From the NCBI GenBank assembly GCA_016786485.1, contig JAEUWD010000062.1, forward strand, positions 1 to 58,996: DNA of 58,996 nucleotides, in the 5' to 3' direction. The notes beneath the pieces were generated by a model. The model saw nothing but the letters and a program-made list of their open reading frames with translations, was not told the DNA's origin and made no database searches. Shown here piece by piece: positions 17,416-24,835 of the stretch; position 1 is the stretch's first letter; every line of letters starts with the position of its first letter. Source of the DNA: Bacteriovoracaceae bacterium. Its GTDB lineage: Bacteria > Bdellovibrionota > Bacteriovoracia > Bacteriovoracales > Bacteriovoracaceae. Made by a program: the position numbers and the translations under genes.

Positions 17416-18468
17416 ATGAATACGGATGAATTAGCATCGAAAAATTCGGTTTGGCATTTGTTAAAGGAACTTTCTAGCAAAGCAGGTATTACTGATATTA
17501 TTATTAATGGTAGCAATAATGTTTATGTTGAAAGAGCAAACGAGTTTATTCGATTAAGCACAGAGCTTAAACGTGAAGACATTTATCAATTTTGCCAAGA
17601 GATTGCGCAATTTAACAAAACCACATTAACTGAAACCAATCCGATCATTGATGGTCGTCTGCCAGATGGTTCGCGTATCAATATTATTTCTGATATGTAT
17701 ACCACTGGAACCCACGCCATCACCATTCGAAAATATTTAAAACACATTAAGACTTTCGATAGCTCTCCCGGCATTTTTGGGATTAAGGATCTACGTTGGA
17801 TCGAGTTCTTCCGCGCTTTAGTAAATGCTCGCAGTAATATTCTTATTTCAGGTGGAACTGGCGCTGGTAAAACCACTTTCATGAATTTAATGTTACAAGA
17901 AATTCCCAAAACTCAAAGGGTGATCACGATTGAAGATACACGGGAGTTGCAATTTAATCTGACGAATGTCGTTCGATTGGAAGCTAAGAACACAGTATTT
18001 AATACCACTAACGCACTTACCACCCGTCAGCTTTTGAAAAATACTTTAAGAATGCGTCCAGACCGAATTATTGTAGGTGAGGTCAGAGGCGAGGAAGCTT
18101 TTGATTTGTTGCAGGCCATGAACACTGGTCACGATGGAAGTATGTCGACGTTACATTCAAATAGTCCATCAGAAGCGTTAATTCGCCTAGAAAATCTCTT
18201 TCTATTAGCTGGCTATGATATTCCAACTCGTCCCTTACGTTATCAAATTGCGAAGGCGATTGATTATGTCATACAAATCGGTCGCAATAAAGAAGGTGAA
18301 CGCGTGCTTATGAGTGTCACCGAAGTTGTTGGCATGGAAGAAGATCGTATTCTTCAGCAAGAAATTGGTGCTTACAAAGAAGACACTTTCGAGTTTACGG
18401 GCCTAGTTCCCGCAAAAATGAGAGATCTGATCAAAGTCGGCCTCGATCCCGCTTTTTTTAATAAATAA
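17416..18468 (+). CDS. CpaF/TadA/VirB11-type secretion ATPase, stand-alone
   Basis: The 350-residue hexameric ATPase of the type II/IV secretion family would power pilus assembly or secretion at the inner membrane. Walker A is GGTGAGKT at about 146-153, the Asp box is [12 protein letters not shown] at 169-180, Walker B is [10 protein letters not shown] at 218-227, and the His box is SMSTLHSN at 242-249. The N-terminal domain includes [14 protein letters not shown] and the [16 protein letters not shown] block typical of CpaF. It is shorter than most CpaF proteins (about 420-500) because the N-terminal extension is missing. No tadB/C, pilin, secretin or cpaE genes are adjacent. The 3' end overlaps hemE by 11 bases. 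Confidence 0.88.
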
Positions 18469-19498
18469 AATTCTTATGAATGAATTCAACCGTTTTTCTT
18501 ACGTTGTCTTGAGGTGTTTCGATCAACACTCCATGGCCTAAACCACAGATCCATTTCTCAAAATTGACATTATTTTTTTCTAAAGTCTTAAAAAAACCAG
18601 CTAGGTTTTTTTCAAGCTGTGCCCACGGCAAGTGTAACCAAGCCGGATCAATATTGCCCTGAATGTAATAATTTTTTGAGAAAGTTTTGAGCGCTTGTGA
18701 AAGATCCATTCTCCAGTCAACACCCAGTACATCTATAAAAGGATTGTCCAAAATTTCTAAGAAATGAAGGTGAGTAAATTTTGAATAATAAATAATCTTC
18801 GTATGTGGATGTTGTTTTTTGAAAGTTTCGCAAACTTGTCGTAAAACAGGGACGATAAATTGTTGATAATCACTTAGAGCAAGCTCACCAGCTGCTGTAT
18901 CGAAAAGGCAAACTGCCGTTGGATTGGCCTTGGCCTGTATATCCATATTCGCTAACAATTGAGGCAGCAAGATTTCCATGAAAGCTTGGAAGCGACCATC
19001 GTAAAGACCTTTCTTTGAGCTCACCAGATTTCCTGAGTGACCACCTTCGACCGCATAGGCGTAAAGAGTAAAAGGAGCGCCCACAAAACCTAAGAGGTCT
19101 GTCTGCGCAGGAAGCGTCTTTTTTAAAAGTGTAAGTGCTTTGTTCTGAAAGGCATAAAAATTTTCTGCTTTATCCACTAATTTAAGCTGCTTGAAATCTT
19201 CGTGATTTTTTATATGATATTTTAGGGTTGGTGGCCCACTGATGTAGGAAAGACCCATACCAAGTTGCTCAAGCGGAAATAATAAATCTGAAAATAAAAT
19301 AGCGGCATCAAATTTAAAATCTTGAATCGGTCCCATCGTAATTTCGCAGGCAAGTTCTGGATTTTTACACATAGTCATAAAGTCCGAATTCTTTTTTATA
19401 TTTTGGTAATGTTCATGATAACGACCCGCTTGTCGCATAAACCATACTGGCACTTGTGTTTTCCCATTTGCTGTTTTTTGTCGTTGAAAGAGACCCAT
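18458..19498 (-). CDS. hemE: Uroporphyrinogen decarboxylase
   Basis: HemE removes four carboxyl groups from uroporphyrinogen III to give coproporphyrinogen III in the cytoplasm. The 346-residue protein matches the family length. Signatures are VPVWFMRQAGRYHEHYQ (about 17-33), ILFSDLLFPLEQLGM with the catalytic Asp, and GFVGAPFTLYAYAVEGG. The C-terminus has the ICGLGHGVLIETPQDNVR block. It is the last gene of the haem operon, 2 bases after the response regulator. Confidence 0.96.
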   Translation of the reverse strand: MGLFQRQKTANGKTQVPVWFMRQAGRYHEHYQNIKKNSDFMTMCKNPELACEITMGPIQDFKFDAAILFSDLLFPLEQLGMGLSYISGPPTLKYHIKNHEDFKQLKLVDKAENFYAFQNKALTLLKKTLPAQTDLLGFVGAPFTLYAYAVEGGHSGNLVSSKKGLYDGRFQAFMEILLPQLLANMDIQAKANPTAVCLFDTAAGELALSDYQQFIVPVLRQVCETFKKQHPHTKIIYYSKFTHLHFLEILDNPFIDVLGVDWRMDLSQALKTFSKNYYIQGNIDPAWLHLPWAQLEKNLAGFFKTLEKNNVNFEKWICGLGHGVLIETPQDNVRKTVEFIHKNFIY

Positions 19499-19500
19499 AA

Positions 19501-20196
19501 TTATTTTCCTTTATATTCTAAGCGATAACCGATTCCTCGATGCGAACTAATATGCAGTCCAGAATGAGTATCGCTTTCCGTCCATTTTCTAAGTTTTACA
19601 ATATAATTATCTACCGTACGATTGGAAGGGAAGCTATTTTCTCCCCAAATTTTTTCAATAATTTCATCGCGACTAATAACATCATTCATCCGCTGATAGA
19701 GTAGTTGTAGGATGCCGCATTCTTTTTGAGATAAATTCAAAATCTGTCCCTGGCCATTTTGAATTTCGTAACGCTTGAACCAAACTTTGAGTTTTCCAAA
19801 TTCAATCACATCCGGATTTTCATTGAGGAGTTTTTGCGATTTTAAGATTTTCTCCAAGCGAATAGTAAGTTCTTTTAAGGCAAAAGGTTTCGATATAAAA
19901 TCCTCCGCTCCTAATTCAAAACCCTCAAGTCGAGTTTCAGGATCATTCATGGCGGATAAAAAAAGGAGAACGAAGTTTTTATTTAATTTTCTTAATTCTT
20001 GCGCCAGCTCGAGACCGTTTCCATCGGGAAGGTTGATATCAAGTAAAACAATTTGTGGATTATCTTTAATAAAATGAGTCTTCGCTTGTCCTACGTTAGT
20101 TACCCACTGACACTGGAAGCCAACCGAGTTGAGGTAATCTTGGAGCGTTTCACCTAAATTTGTTTCATCTTCAACCAGAAGGATATTTTCGCTCAT
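19501..20196 (-). CDS. OmpR/PhoB-type response regulator inside the haem operon (HemR-like)
   Basis: The 231-residue regulator has a receiver domain (about 1-118) with acidic pocket Glu9/Asp10, phospho-acceptor Asp53 in LLDINLPDGNGLE, and Lys103 in SKPFALKEL. A winged-helix DNA-binding domain (about 130-228) has the recognition helix around SNRTVDNYIVKLRKW and the wing HISSHRGIGYRLEY. Its start overlaps the kinase stop in ATGA. Its position between a kinase and hemE, in an operon of haem genes, suggests that it controls haem synthesis. It resembles the HemKR system of Leptospira in gene order; orthology is inferred. Confidence 0.92.
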   Translation of the reverse strand: MSENILLVEDETNLGETLQDYLNSVGFQCQWVTNVGQAKTHFIKDNPQIVLLDINLPDGNGLELAQELRKLNKNFVLLFLSAMNDPETRLEGFELGAEDFISKPFALKELTIRLEKILKSQKLLNENPDVIEFGKLKVWFKRYEIQNGQGQILNLSQKECGILQLLYQRMNDVISRDEIIEKIWGENSFPSNRTVDNYIVKLRKWTESDTHSGLHISSHRGIGYRLEYKGK

Positions 20197-21092
20197 AGTG
20201 CTTCTCGTTTAAAAGTTAAACTAAAAACCAGGTTTTCTGTATTTAGAATTTCAAATTTTCCTTGCAGTTTATTCATTAAATTTTTAATTAAAAATAATCC
20301 AATACCTGTGCCTTTATTCGAGTTGTGTTTGTAGTAAAGTTCACTCAGTTTTTTTCGTGCCCCTGTAAATGCTTCACCTCGATCGTTATAGATTAATTGA
20401 ACGGTATTGTTTTTCGTATCGGGCTGAATCATGATGAGTACAGGCTTATCGAGTTTTCGATGTCTTCGTGTGTTTTGGATTAAATTCCGCATAATGGTGT
20501 TAAGGGCGTGCTCATCCACCATAATATTAATGTCTTGAGGACAATCTAGTTCAAAATTCAATTCTGGTGTGCGCTTAATAAGATTCACTAAATATTCTTG
20601 TAAATTGAGCGGATGTAATTCAAAAGTCCCGCCGCGTAGGACTCGAGAAAGTTGTAAGCTGTTTTCAAGTTCGCTTTCAAGCTTTTGACTGTCTTGCACT
20701 AAACGAGTCGTAATTTTTTTTAATTTTGGATCTTCAAACTTAAATTCTTGAATCACTTCTGATTGTAAGCGGATACTTGTAAGCGGTGTTTTTAATTCAT
20801 GCGTAAGCGAAGCAAAAAAGTGGTGAAGGGCATTGGTCTTTTTGTTTTCTTGAAAAAAGAGATAAAAAAGTGTCAGCGCAACACTGGAAAGTAGAATAAA
20901 AAAGGTTAGGCCTTCCCACTTAACAATATTTACTAGCCTCTGGTGACCGCCAACCTCGTCAAGATTAAGTTGGTGCAAAGTCGCACTCAAGTTGAGCACG
21001 AGATACAACCACCACACACCTAAAGTTAAAATAAGAAATAACAATAGTCCGGTTAGAAGATAAATCCAGCGTTTATTCTTATTTAATTCCAT
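20193..21092 (-). CDS. Membrane sensor histidine kinase inside the haem operon (HemK-like sensor)
   Basis: The 299-residue kinase has two transmembrane helices (about 9-34 and 60-80) with a periplasmic loop of only about 25 residues, so any signal is probably sensed in or near the membrane. The H box is FFASLTHELKTPLTS with His98. The N box is NLIQNTRR (Asn207), Asp237 lies in NDRGE, and the G2 box is GTGIGLFLIKNL (261-272). There is no HAMP or PAS domain. The start overlaps the hemL stop by 10 bases and the end overlaps the regulator by four. The cognate partner is surely the regulator downstream. Confidence 0.92.
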   Translation of the reverse strand: MELNKNKRWIYLLTGLLLFLILTLGVWWLYLVLNLSATLHQLNLDEVGGHQRLVNIVKWEGLTFFILLSSVALTLFYLFFQENKKTNALHHFFASLTHELKTPLTSIRLQSEVIQEFKFEDPKLKKITTRLVQDSQKLESELENSLQLSRVLRGGTFELHPLNLQEYLVNLIKRTPELNFELDCPQDINIMVDEHALNTIMRNLIQNTRRHRKLDKPVLIMIQPDTKNNTVQLIYNDRGEAFTGARKKLSELYYKHNSNKGTGIGLFLIKNLMNKLQGKFEILNTENLVFSLTFKREAL

Positions 21093-22342
21093 AATTTATT
21101 TTTAAGATCTTCAATCACGTCATTATTATGAGCAAGACTGACGAATCCAACTTCGTATGCGTTTGGTGCAAGATAAATGCCTTTTTCTAGCATCGTTTGG
21201 AACAATTGATAGAAACGTGTTCCTAAATTTTTTGGAATTTCACTGATTTTACTTACGCTGGCCATATCTGGGTGATTCCAGAACAACGAGCCAGAACGAG
21301 TCATATAATAATCCGCAAAGCCAAATTCTTTCATCCACTCTGTCATGAGTGTTTGAATTTTTTGTGATTGCGTTTCAATTTGCTTGTATGTTTGTGGAGT
21401 TAATTGCATTAGCGTTGCCAGTCCCGCACTCATCGCCACCGGATTTGCGCTTAAAGTACCGGCTTGGTAAACACCGCCGACAGGAGCAAGCTCTTGCATG
21501 ATGGCCTTTGGCCCCGCGACTGCGCCCACTGGCATACCACCACCGATAATTTTTCCATAAGTTAAAATGTCTGGACGAATACCTGAGAATCCAGCGTATC
21601 CATCAAACTGCACGCGGAAGCCCGAAATAACTTCATCGAAAATAAGTAGGGCACCGTTATCTGTCGCCATTTTTCTTAAGAATTTTAAAAAACTTTCTGA
21701 CTGTGGCATTAAACCGTTATTGGCCGGTAGTGGCTCAATCACGATAGCAGCGATTTGATTATGATGAGCAGCAAAGCAAGCTTTCACTGCCGCTTCATCG
21801 CCTAATTCACAAATGAGAGTATCTTTCGCTGTCTCTTCAGTTACTCCACGAGAAGAAGCTTCCGCTGTTCCAGCTAAGCCTGAACCAGCTTTAATTAACA
21901 TGGAATCTAAGTGACCATGGTAACAACCATCAAATTTAATCACTTTTGATTTTCCGGTATAACCACGAGCAAGTCTGAGTGCTGTCATGACAGCTTCAGT
22001 GCCTGAATTCATAAAACGAATTTGTTCAATAAAAGGAATGCGTGAAATAATATATTCAGCGAGCTCTAGAGAATATTTTTCACAAGCACCGTAACTCCAA
22101 CCGCGTTTAACCGCATCGATAATCGCTGTTTCAACTTTTGGATTGCGGTGACCTAAAATCAACGGACCGAAACTCATGCAAAAATCGATATACTCTTTGC
22201 CGTCTTCATCGGTGAGATAAGCACCATCGGAGTTTTTGATAAAACGCGGGGTCGTGTGCAAGCCTTTAAAACTTCTTACTGGTGAATGCACTCCACCTGG
22301 CACTAATTTAAGTGATTTTTGATAGAGTTCATTGGAATTCAT
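21083..22342 (-). CDS. hemL: Glutamate-1-semialdehyde 2,1-aminomutase
   Basis: HemL converts glutamate-1-semialdehyde, made by HemA, into 5-aminolevulinate using PLP. The 419-residue protein has the family length. FDEVISGFRV (about 235-244) holds the PLP-binding Asp, and Lys264 in ILTYGKIIGGGMPVGA is the Schiff-base Lys. The N-terminal LVPGGVHSPVRSFKG block is diagnostic. A GGAG sequence that overlaps the hemC/D stop precedes the ATG. hemB, the next enzyme, is not in this window. Confidence 0.97.
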   Translation of the reverse strand: MNSNELYQKSLKLVPGGVHSPVRSFKGLHTTPRFIKNSDGAYLTDEDGKEYIDFCMSFGPLILGHRNPKVETAIIDAVKRGWSYGACEKYSLELAEYIISRIPFIEQIRFMNSGTEAVMTALRLARGYTGKSKVIKFDGCYHGHLDSMLIKAGSGLAGTAEASSRGVTEETAKDTLICELGDEAAVKACFAAHHNQIAAIVIEPLPANNGLMPQSESFLKFLRKMATDNGALLIFDEVISGFRVQFDGYAGFSGIRPDILTYGKIIGGGMPVGAVAGPKAIMQELAPVGGVYQAGTLSANPVAMSAGLATLMQLTPQTYKQIETQSQKIQTLMTEWMKEFGFADYYMTRSGSLFWNHPDMASVSKISEIPKNLGTRFYQLFQTMLEKGIYLAPNAYEVGFVSLAHNNDVIEDLKNKLWN

Positions 22343-22350
22343 AAAGTCTC

Positions 22351-23880
22351 CTATGGGAGAAAGAATTGGGTAAATTCAGACATATCAGCAACTGGTAGTA
22401 CATTTACATTATTTTGTTTGAATTCATCAAGGGTTTTCCCTAGACCACAGCAATGAATGCTCTCAGTCTTAGTGAGGAAAGGAAGAAAAGCTTGGTACTG
22501 GGCGAAGCTGGTCCAATAGAAAACCCGAATCTGCTCTAGTTTGGCCAAATAATCGCTTTTTGGCTTGAGGATTTCTCGTTCATAACAAGCGATCGTTTTG
22601 CCGATTTCACTCTTGGAGTCTTTATTTGTCAGGACAAACCATTCACGGTTTTCATAAAAAAGTTTAAGAAAACGGCTATGTTTTAATTCATTTATTTCAT
22701 CGTGTCCTAGGGAATCGGCGCTTCCATGTATCCAATGCCCAGCTTGAATCATCGCCTGCCAAGTTTTGGTCCCGGCGACAAATTTAAAGCCTTCGATCTT
22801 ATCCATACTTTCAAGCGCATAATTAGTGGTAATAAAATAGGCTTGATCATTTTTTAACTTGGCCTGAAAAGGCTTTTTTAAAATCACTTCATCATAAAGA
22901 AAAGATTCACGATTTGATTTTGCTTTAGGTAAGCCTAAAAAGACATTTTGCTTTTTTATAGGTTTAATTTTTGTCGTGAGTGAGTTCTTCTGCAATTTCT
23001 TTTCAAAATACTCTTTTTCGCCGTGAATACCTTGCTGAATAATGTATTGATCAAAAGTGAGATTCTTAACATAAATTCCCATAGCAAGATGGCAACCACC
23101 ACCAAAGCTTTGGAAACATTCTTTTTCAATCGTGACAGCTTCCGCCGTATTTTTATTATGAATACAGCTGAGAATTTCGAGTAGCGCCTTATCATTCTGA
23201 CGACATTCGATCGCCAGCGCCCCTTGAGAAGGGGCGGAAGTGAAGTGACTCTGTGGTAAAACCATGAAGTCTAAATCTTGCACGAGTGCTTTTAATTCTT
23301 TAAGTGAATCTGGGTGTGAGGCGAGACGTTCAAGGCCTGCGAATGCCAGAATAATGGCATCGTAATCACCCTTTTGTAATTTGGAAATCCGAGTATTTAC
23401 ATTTCCTCGCAACATTTCACATTTGATTTGGCATTCAGTTTGTAGTCCAGGTAGAAATTCGCCGAGATTTTTTTCGATATGATAAATGCGTCGAGGGGAA
23501 CTCGTTCCAATTTTCAAGGTTTTAAAAGCTCCCAGTTTAGCTTGTGTCGATTTTTTTATAAGTAAAATATCATTGGCAAAAGTTCTTTTAGTGATGGCCG
23601 CTAATTGAATTCCGGCTGGACGAACGGAGCCGAGATCTTTATAGGAATGCACGACCAAATCAATTTCATTTCTTAAAAGTGCTTCATCTAATTCTTTTGT
23701 GAAGAAGTCTTTTCCGTCCATTTGCCAGAGCGGTACGCTGGTATTGAGATCGCCTTGGGTGGTGATTTTGACTAATTCAAATCGGTGTCCCGTTTTTTCT
23801 TCGAGCTCATTTTTTATGAGAGTAGATTGAGTGTAGGCCAAGAGACTACCTCTAGTGCCTAGCTTAAAAGTTTTAGACAA
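22351..23880 (-). CDS. hemC: Porphobilinogen deaminase fused to a uroporphyrinogen-III synthase-like domain
   Basis: Residues 1 to about 290 are HemC, which links four porphobilinogens: LGTRGSLLAYTQS (7-19), HSYKD (78-82, catalytic Asp82) and the dipyrromethane Cys263 in FGGGCHLAMG. The remaining 220 residues look like HemD, which closes the ring: ITTNYA, then ACYEREILKP, YWTSFAQYQAFLPFL and HCCGLGKTLDEF, in the order seen in HemD. The longer frame to 23964 would overlap hemA by 92 bases. I choose a TTG at 23878-23880 because GGAG lies 6 bases before it and HemC begins there. The HemD part is divergent. Overlap with hemA is then 8 bases. Confidence 0.88.
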   Translation of the reverse strand: MSKTFKLGTRGSLLAYTQSTLIKNELEEKTGHRFELVKITTQGDLNTSVPLWQMDGKDFFTKELDEALLRNEIDLVVHSYKDLGSVRPAGIQLAAITKRTFANDILLIKKSTQAKLGAFKTLKIGTSSPRRIYHIEKNLGEFLPGLQTECQIKCEMLRGNVNTRISKLQKGDYDAIILAFAGLERLASHPDSLKELKALVQDLDFMVLPQSHFTSAPSQGALAIECRQNDKALLEILSCIHNKNTAEAVTIEKECFQSFGGGCHLAMGIYVKNLTFDQYIIQQGIHGEKEYFEKKLQKNSLTTKIKPIKKQNVFLGLPKAKSNRESFLYDEVILKKPFQAKLKNDQAYFITTNYALESMDKIEGFKFVAGTKTWQAMIQAGHWIHGSADSLGHDEINELKHSRFLKLFYENREWFVLTNKDSKSEIGKTIACYEREILKPKSDYLAKLEQIRVFYWTSFAQYQAFLPFLTKTESIHCCGLGKTLDEFKQNNVNVLPVADMSEFTQFFLP

Positions 23881-24787
23881 AGTTTGCTCCAACCGTGACC
23901 GGCATGAATTCTGGTATAACGAAGAGTTGCTCACGACGGGTGGCCGCGAAACGAATAGCTTCATGTGCTTGATTTAATTTTTCCATTTTTAAAGTTTGGT
24001 GAATCGCACCTTCTTCAAAAATATTTTCTAAACGATAGAGATTATTTTCGACCGTCAAATTCGTTCGTATGGTTGAAGGCGAGCCCAAATCGATAAAAGC
24101 TTTTTGCTTATGTTTTTTATTCCAAGCTTCAAAGAAGTCTGCACTTAAAATAACTTCGCTTTTACATCCGATAGTATTAGCAATAAAAGCATGTTCGAGA
24201 AATTGTGTGTGATCATTCCATGGAACAATTTCTATTTGATGAATTTGTGCCAATTGAGAAAGTCGTTCTTGATTTCTAGCACTCACAAAAATTTTTGCGC
24301 GTTTTTTAAATTGGTTAATCAGATCTTCTGCCAAAGCTCCTGAGCCTAAAATCAAAATATTTTCGCTCAGGCCATGACGAAGCATAATTTTTTTAGTGAT
24401 GCTGGCGTAAGTTTTTTGTGAAATTCCAATTAAATGCTGAGTTCGAATATCCTTAGCGTCTTTAAGTAATTTTTCCAGGACGCGAATCATCTTTTTTTCA
24501 ATCATGGGCTGGTTAAGATAGCTTTTAAAAGCCTCTTTAAATTGACCTACAATTTCATTTTCGCCTAAAAGTTTACTTTTGAGGCCACAAATGGTCTCAA
24601 GTAAGTAAATATAGGCATTGACGCCATGCTCTGTTTCCATGCGAAGGGCCGGATTGAAATTTAACTTTTGACCATAACTTAAAACCAAAGTACGTTGGCA
24701 TGTTTTAAGAATGAAATGTGACTTTTCGATATGATGGTCGATGGAATAACCCGTTGGGAAATTGTATAGGTGAAGTTGATTTAACAT
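23873..24787 (-). CDS. hemA: Glutamyl-tRNA reductase, short form
   Basis: HemA reduces Glu-tRNA to glutamate-1-semialdehyde with NADPH and is the first committed step. The catalytic Cys30 lies in ILKTCQRTLVL. The GLKSKLLGENEIVGQFKEAF segment (68-87) matches the conserved GL-S-LGE-I-GQ-K-A block, and the nucleotide fold starts at ENILILGSGALAEDL (142-155). At 304 residues it is much shorter than the usual 400-450: the C-terminal dimerisation helices are reduced and the N-terminus is about 20 residues short. It heads the operon, with the candidate operator 33 bases upstream. Confidence 0.9.
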   Translation of the reverse strand: MLNQLHLYNFPTGYSIDHHIEKSHFILKTCQRTLVLSYGQKLNFNPALRMETEHGVNAYIYLLETICGLKSKLLGENEIVGQFKEAFKSYLNQPMIEKKMIRVLEKLLKDAKDIRTQHLIGISQKTYASITKKIMLRHGLSENILILGSGALAEDLINQFKKRAKIFVSARNQERLSQLAQIHQIEIVPWNDHTQFLEHAFIANTIGCKSEVILSADFFEAWNKKHKQKAFIDLGSPSTIRTNLTVENNLYRLENIFEEGAIHQTLKMEKLNQAHEAIRFAATRREQLFVIPEFMPVTVGANFV

Positions 24788-24819
24788 GACCTTAGTTTAA
24801 AAGAACGATCACGAAGAAT

Positions 24820-24835
24820 TGTCACAGAATTGTAA
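24820..24835 (-). promoter_or_regulatory. Candidate hem box (HemR-type operator) upstream of hemA
   Basis: On the minus strand the sequence reads TTACA, six bases, TGACA. The Leptospira HemR binding site, as I recall it, is TGACA-N6-TGACA, so this is 9 of 10 matches with exact spacing. It lies 33 bases upstream of the hemA ATG, in the only promoter region of an operon that encodes an OmpR-type regulator. A TACAAT sequence, possibly a -10 box, overlaps its upstream half. Direct repeats with 11-base period are what a dimeric OmpR-type regulator binds. That this regulator binds it is an inference. Confidence 0.55.

Follow-up and report, generated by a model that had tools for sequence, protein, structure and literature searches.

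A Leptospira-type HemKR pair and its candidate operator in a haem biosynthesis operon of Bdellovibrionota

The window analyzed here, a 58,996-nucleotide stretch of DNA from a Bacteriovoracaceae bacterium, carries on its minus strand a haem operon of six genes, hemA-hemCD-hemL-hemK-hemR-hemE, in which a histidine kinase and a response regulator lie among the biosynthetic enzymes. The best explanation, held with high confidence, is a self-regulated operon: the pair, orthologous to HemK and HemR of Leptospira, would control the hemA promoter through an upstream hem-box, with feedback from tetrapyrroles. A relative of the predator Bdellovibrio carries, in its haem operon, a switch of the Leptospira type together with its candidate control site. 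The HemKR experiments found in the literature searched come from Leptospira only, and HemKR as the usual haem control of a largely predatory phylum would offer another system in which the signal could be sought.

The nearest named genomes identify the host as a Bacteriovoracaceae-like member of Bdellovibrionota, a phylum formerly placed in Deltaproteobacteria. All six genes were recognized with Pfam and NCBIfam in the order and at the coordinates that an earlier note had read from the letters alone, i.e., hemA, hemC/D, hemL, kinase, OmpR-type regulator, and hemE (Table 1). The hemA and hemCD frames overlap by 8 nt if hemCD begins at the TTG at 23880, which is probably its start, or by 92 nt if the upstream ATG at 23964 is used. 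Downstream, hemCD and hemL are separated by 8 nt, hemL and the kinase gene overlap by 10 nt, the kinase and regulator genes overlap by 4 nt, and a gap of 2 nt precedes hemE, such that the overlaps of 4–10 and gaps of 2–8 bases claimed in that note hold with the TTG start. In the window's genome (G000), hemB and ferrochelatase are encoded elsewhere, outside the operon. A scan for consensus terminators gave nothing above chance, and a search of Rfam gave no matches. The 3′ end of hemE overlaps a convergent plus-strand gene for a T2SSE-type ATPase (17416–18468) by 11 nt (18458–18468).

Table 1. Genes and predicted control elements of the haem operon, in window positions
Feature	Position	Strand	Support or remark
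hemA, short glutamyl-tRNA reductase, 304 aa, Cys motif TCQRT	23873..24787	-	Pfam GlutR_N, Shikimate_DH
hemCD, hydroxymethylbilane synthase fused to a likely diverged uroporphyrinogen-III synthase	22351..23880	-	longest ORF from 23964; HemD half inferred
hemL, glutamate-1-semialdehyde aminomutase	21083..22342	-	NCBIfam PRK00062, E 6.7e-161
hemK orthologue, HisKA kinase, two N-terminal TM helices, short loop, W27 W28, E60, H98, T102	20193..21092	-	
hemR orthologue, OmpR/PhoB-type regulator, D53, recognition helix NRTVDNYIVKLRK	19501..20196	-	
hemE, uroporphyrinogen decarboxylase	18458..19498	-	Pfam URO-D, E 1.4e-84
hem-box, putative HemR operator TTACA-ATTCTG-TGACA	24820..24835	-	48 bp upstream of hemA ATG
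Predicted -10 hexamer TAAACT	24794..24799	-	36 bp from box start

This layout, which the earlier note had considered unusual for a proteobacterium, is instead the norm in Bdellovibrionota. Of 241 genomes sampled from the phylum, 161 contain a member of the kinase family at E ≤ 1e-30, and nearly all of the 57 fetched operon loci read hemA-hemCD-(hemB)-hemL-HK-RR-hemE (where HK is the kinase and RR the regulator), often followed by hemN-hemG. The exceptions are loci at contig ends and L070, in which HK-RR adjoins hemA on the opposite strand and both hemL and hemE are missing from the vicinity. Such recurrence of one gene order throughout the phylum is not explained by chance. The L. interrogans locus is arranged as hemA-hemCD-hemB-hemL-kinase-regulator-hemE-hemN-hemG, and some Bdellovibrionota operons have hemB at the Leptospira position. 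Among 20 genomes in which the kinase had no strong match, 10 have no hemC at all.

The enzymes at the head of the operon are themselves atypical. The HemA dimerisation domain (PF00745) was not found in the window HemA or anywhere in the window's genome; L. interrogans HemA has the same short form, likewise without PF00745, and is annotated as “hypothetical”. In the proposed hemC/D fusion, the HemC half is recognized by Pfam, whereas the HemD half is not and has to be identified indirectly. Pfam returned no match to HEM4 (PF02602) in the window HemCD or in 27 relatives (28 members), and a profile comparison with E. coli HemD found nothing. Models of the HemD half, with a pLDDT of 34 for the sequence alone and 44 with four sequences, were too poor for a fold search. 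The C-terminal half is likely a diverged HemD, since no other HemD is detectable in the window's genome (98% complete), the L. interrogans record annotates the same fusion, and basal relatives of families f22/f23 combine a long HemA with an HemCD fusion harboring a recognizable HEM4. Because the same fusion retains HEM4 in these relatives, its absence from the window protein likely stems from divergence. In family f3, HemA is full-length and HemC and HemD are separate; hemB, hemL, the pair, and hemE are also present, as is a perfect box. In Leptospira and in all pair-bearing operons examined outside f3 and f22/f23, HemA is short and HemD is diverged; these findings explain how both proteins escape annotation in the two groups. 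Of a different make-up is the locus L200 of a relative (genome G006), which contains two oppositely oriented hemC-like genes, one of them fused, and a long HemA, and has neither a HemKR pair nor a box.

The two regulatory genes were proposed to be HemK and HemR orthologues in a Leptospira-like haem operon, and this is borne out by the regulator and kinase trees, by their slot between hemL and hemE, and by the hem-box at hemA. In a search of the whole window genome with the L. interrogans kinase, the window kinase is the best match (1.7e-42) over residues 4–288, including the TM region, and the next match reaches 3e-16. In a tree of 75 regulators, 38 of which lie outside the HemR group, 35 operon regulators of the phylum group with L. 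interrogans HemR and the receiver domain of PDB 4q7e in a single clade (99/93), separate from 29 paralogues and nine E. coli regulators. Concatenated HK+RR trees yield the same grouping (99/99 and 100/99). PDB 4q7e, which we take to be L. biflexa HemR, is the best match of L. interrogans HemR among solved structures. The recognition helix carries the motif RT[VI]DN, with the Asn present in all 56 readable operon regulators, including that of Leptospira, and in none of 23 readable paralogues. H98 and T102 of the kinase and D53 of the regulator fall at the same positions as in the numbering of the phospho-acceptor and phosphatase residues for L. biflexa (PMC2266917, PMC11426443); H98 is kept in 64/64 kinases and T102 in 63/64. 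On the basis of its sequence, the window pair is orthologous to Leptospira HemK/HemR.

By hydropathy and alignment, the kinase has two TM helices joined by a loop of about 25 residues, in agreement with the tiny periplasmic loop described earlier. The end of the first helix is marked by two tryptophans, W27 (64 of 64 kinases) and W28 (63), and the start of the second by Glu60 (64). In L. biflexa, growth is maintained when the loop (residues 31–62) is replaced, while the TM region is required (PMC2266917). Judging from the primer sequences of that study, the swapped stretch apparently covers the Glu60 position and spares the tryptophans. The growth test needed only the kinase-on state, and its outcome is compatible with a role of Glu60 in shut-down.

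Phosphorylated HemR of L. biflexa binds TGACA-N6-TGACA (PMC11426443). The window hem-box departs from this sequence by one mismatch (TTACA for TGACA). No other site in the 59 kb window comes within one mismatch of the operator sequence, and none of 200 shuffles of the region yields as good a match. Across the phylum, NKACR-N6-TGACA is present in the hemA promoter of 57 of the 58 operon loci in which hemA was called, 33 of the boxes being perfect, where shuffles predict about none; at the 58th locus, a one-mismatch box lies just inside a miscalled hemA start, bringing the count to 58/58. Many boxes in Bacteriovoracaceae read CTACA-N6-TGACA, with two mismatches, and are individually weak (p up to 0.2), so that the case there rests on conserved position and descent. 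In 38/57 operons (null 2.1, maximum 8), a TAnnnT hexamer stands at position +36 relative to the box start, and a −10 hexamer is at the same offset in L. interrogans and in the window. The box occupies the −35 position, 20 bp from the −10. The expected transcript start commonly coincides with the hemA start codon, which suggests that the leader is very short or missing; for the window, the geometry implies a predicted hemA transcript start at or near the ATG.

A strict form of the box pattern, with which weaker targets may be missed, was searched genome-wide. It occurs three times in the window's genome, and only the hemA site lies in a promoter; the other two are intragenic, in genes for an ATP synthase and an ABC transporter (named from their translations). 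Genome G211 has no strict match other than the hemA site, and the extra sites in other genomes have no shared target. The system looks local, with hemA as the one likely promoter target in the window's genome. A box-like array of tandem TGACACATCCATGACACT units on contig 18 of genome G131 (L157) was rejected as a candidate; it lies among AT and AG simple repeats, looks unrelated, and probably represents satellite DNA of a contig that is foreign or misbinned.

Pair and box also disappear together. In genomes G126 and G196 (genus g19), hemA-hemCD-hemL-hemE remain, the pair is cleanly absent, and there is no box; this state is attributed to loss because both genomes nest among pair-bearing members of their family. 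The other fetched hem loci that lack a two-component system (TCS) likewise gave no box. Upstream of hemA, both g19 loci (L182 in G196, L183 in G126) have a perfect TTGACA hexamer, as if a factor-independent promoter had replaced a regulated one.

In the proposed mechanism, the membrane kinase HemK would phosphorylate HemR, and phosphorylated HemR would bind the hem-box, which stands in for the −35 element of the hemA promoter, and activate transcription of hemA-hemCD-hemL-hemK-hemR-hemE. Upon build-up of a tetrapyrrole precursor or product, HemK would switch to a phosphatase by means of T102 and the operon would fall back, a form of end-product feedback. HemK probably reads its signal at or within the membrane, via the two short TM helices. 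Both the signal and the direction of control are carried over by analogy from Leptospira; we infer activation rather than repression, the dependence of binding on phosphorylation, and the nature of the signal. In L. biflexa, binding by phosphorylated HemR and activation of hemA have been shown (reported in PMC11426443), and the signal tested there was 5-aminolevulinic acid or one of its products (PMC11426443); the sensing of haem itself, suggested in the earlier note, is conjectural. A double hemKR deletion in L. biflexa still makes haem (PMC11426443); therefore, the activation need not be essential.

Two other accounts of the regulatory genes can be set against this mechanism. An unrelated OmpR/EnvZ-type system placed in the haem operon by chance is most improbable: the generic PhoB/CreB-like matches, all below cut-offs, that NCBIfam returns for the pair would suit it, but the trees, the best kinase match, the conservation of the box, and the joint loss of pair and box speak against it. 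The second account retains HemR and changes its sign, making it a repressor of the operon, or a protein that represses or activates according to its phosphorylation state. A box that substitutes for the −35 element at a distance of 20 bp from the −10 has the geometry typical of PhoB-type activators, which argues for activation. Repression would be compatible with the overlap between box and promoter region, with the g19 operons, which retain TTGACA upstream of hemA and so may be expressed without HemR, and with the repression of hmuO by L. biflexa HemR (PMC11426443). The same L. biflexa protein, when phosphorylated, activates hemA (PMC11426443), and together with the promoter geometry this renders the repressor account unlikely.

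A further alternative concerns history and not mechanism. In a combined tree of hemL, hemE, and hemCD, L. interrogans lies inside Bdellovibrionota with 16 operons (100/100) of what we label the Bdellovibrionia type (a clade of families f6, f11, f17, f21, f27, and some of f8). Since the sample consists of Bdellovibrionota, L. interrogans, and six outgroups, it is for that sample that transfer from Bdellovibrionota to Leptospira is suggested as the simplest reading. With groups fixed by phylum and the regulator trees seen before the test, AU tests reject a Bdellovibrionota clade without Leptospira for the enzymes (p 0.0009) and for HK+RR (p 0.0019 and 0.0003), and do not reject it for RR alone (p 0.18); the nesting therefore rests on the enzymes and on HK+RR together. 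The competing view, in which the Leptospira and Bdellovibrionota operons descend from a distant common ancestor or come from a third phylum, is a serious though lesser possibility. It gains from a sampling that, beyond Bdellovibrionota and L. interrogans, amounts to a few outgroup enzymes, and from TCS trees that place Leptospira as sister to the Bdellovibrionia-type clade and not deep inside it. It is opposed by the AU rejections and by the derived state that Leptospira shares, namely a short HemA and the HemCD fusion, whereas f3 has the same TCS with unshortened, unfused enzymes. Because f3 and f22/f23 have pre-derived states, the pair and the box are older than the fusion and the shortening of HemA.

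With roughly even confidence, HemKR may be described as an ancient single-promoter feedback loop of the haem operon in Bdellovibrionota, from which a Bdellovibrionia-like donor passed the whole operon, with switch and operator, to Leptospira (its pathogenic species among them), where the regulon was later enlarged; the kinase would sense a tetrapyrrole signal in the membrane via the invariant WW/Glu residues. The idea that haem-responsive control exists outside spirochaetes, by transfer or common descent, stands insofar as the system is present in Bdellovibrionota, but the likely direction is into Leptospira, not outwards. The conserved operator, the promoter geometry, and the natural losses make the origin of the Leptospira operon a testable transfer hypothesis. 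One operon of the window's own family (L066, genome G050) is of the Bdellovibrionia type, with a divergent hemB and with hemN-hemG downstream, and groups away from its family in the regulator and enzyme trees. The hem operon seems to have moved within Bdellovibrionota too.

The haem association itself was already known in kernel. Louvel et al. noted in 2008, in one clause with data not shown, that the linkage of the pathogen type also occurs in Bdellovibrio bacteriovorus (PMC2266917). This remark describes the same association in the same phylum and gives no sequence, gene order, operator, or tree; no later work following it up was found in the literature searched. The 2008 paper called the arrangement a reorganisation in Leptospira (PMC2266917). 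New beyond PMC2266917 and PMC11426443 are the phylum-wide layout, the operator and promoter geometry in Bdellovibrionota, the joint loss, and the nesting of Leptospira.

Among known systems, the window operon resembles hemACDBL-hemKR-hemEN of L. interrogans (LB014/LB015; Hklep/Rrlep in L. biflexa) in its orthologous pair, the hemL-hemE slot, the short HemA, and HemCD; hemKR is located between hemL and hemE in pathogenic Leptospira (PMC2266917). The L. interrogans hem-box is perfect, with its −10 at the same offset, while the window box has one mismatch. Unlike the L. interrogans operon, that of the window does not include hemB and is not followed by hemN or hemG. It has one likely promoter target, in contrast to the wider regulon of L. 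biflexa (hmuO, exbBD; PMC11426443). With PhoBR and other OmpR/PhoB-type systems, HemKR shares its domain architecture and a direct-repeat operator with an 11-bp period that replaces the −35 element. It differs from them in its separate clade, the Asn after RT[VI]D, the tiny WW…E sensor loop, and a different operator and target. Clusters of the hemAXCDBL type, such as hemA-hemC-cobA-hemB-hemL of Ilyobacter, follow the same hemA-C-D-B-L order; however, they have no embedded two-component system, a longer HemA, and unfused HemC and HemD.
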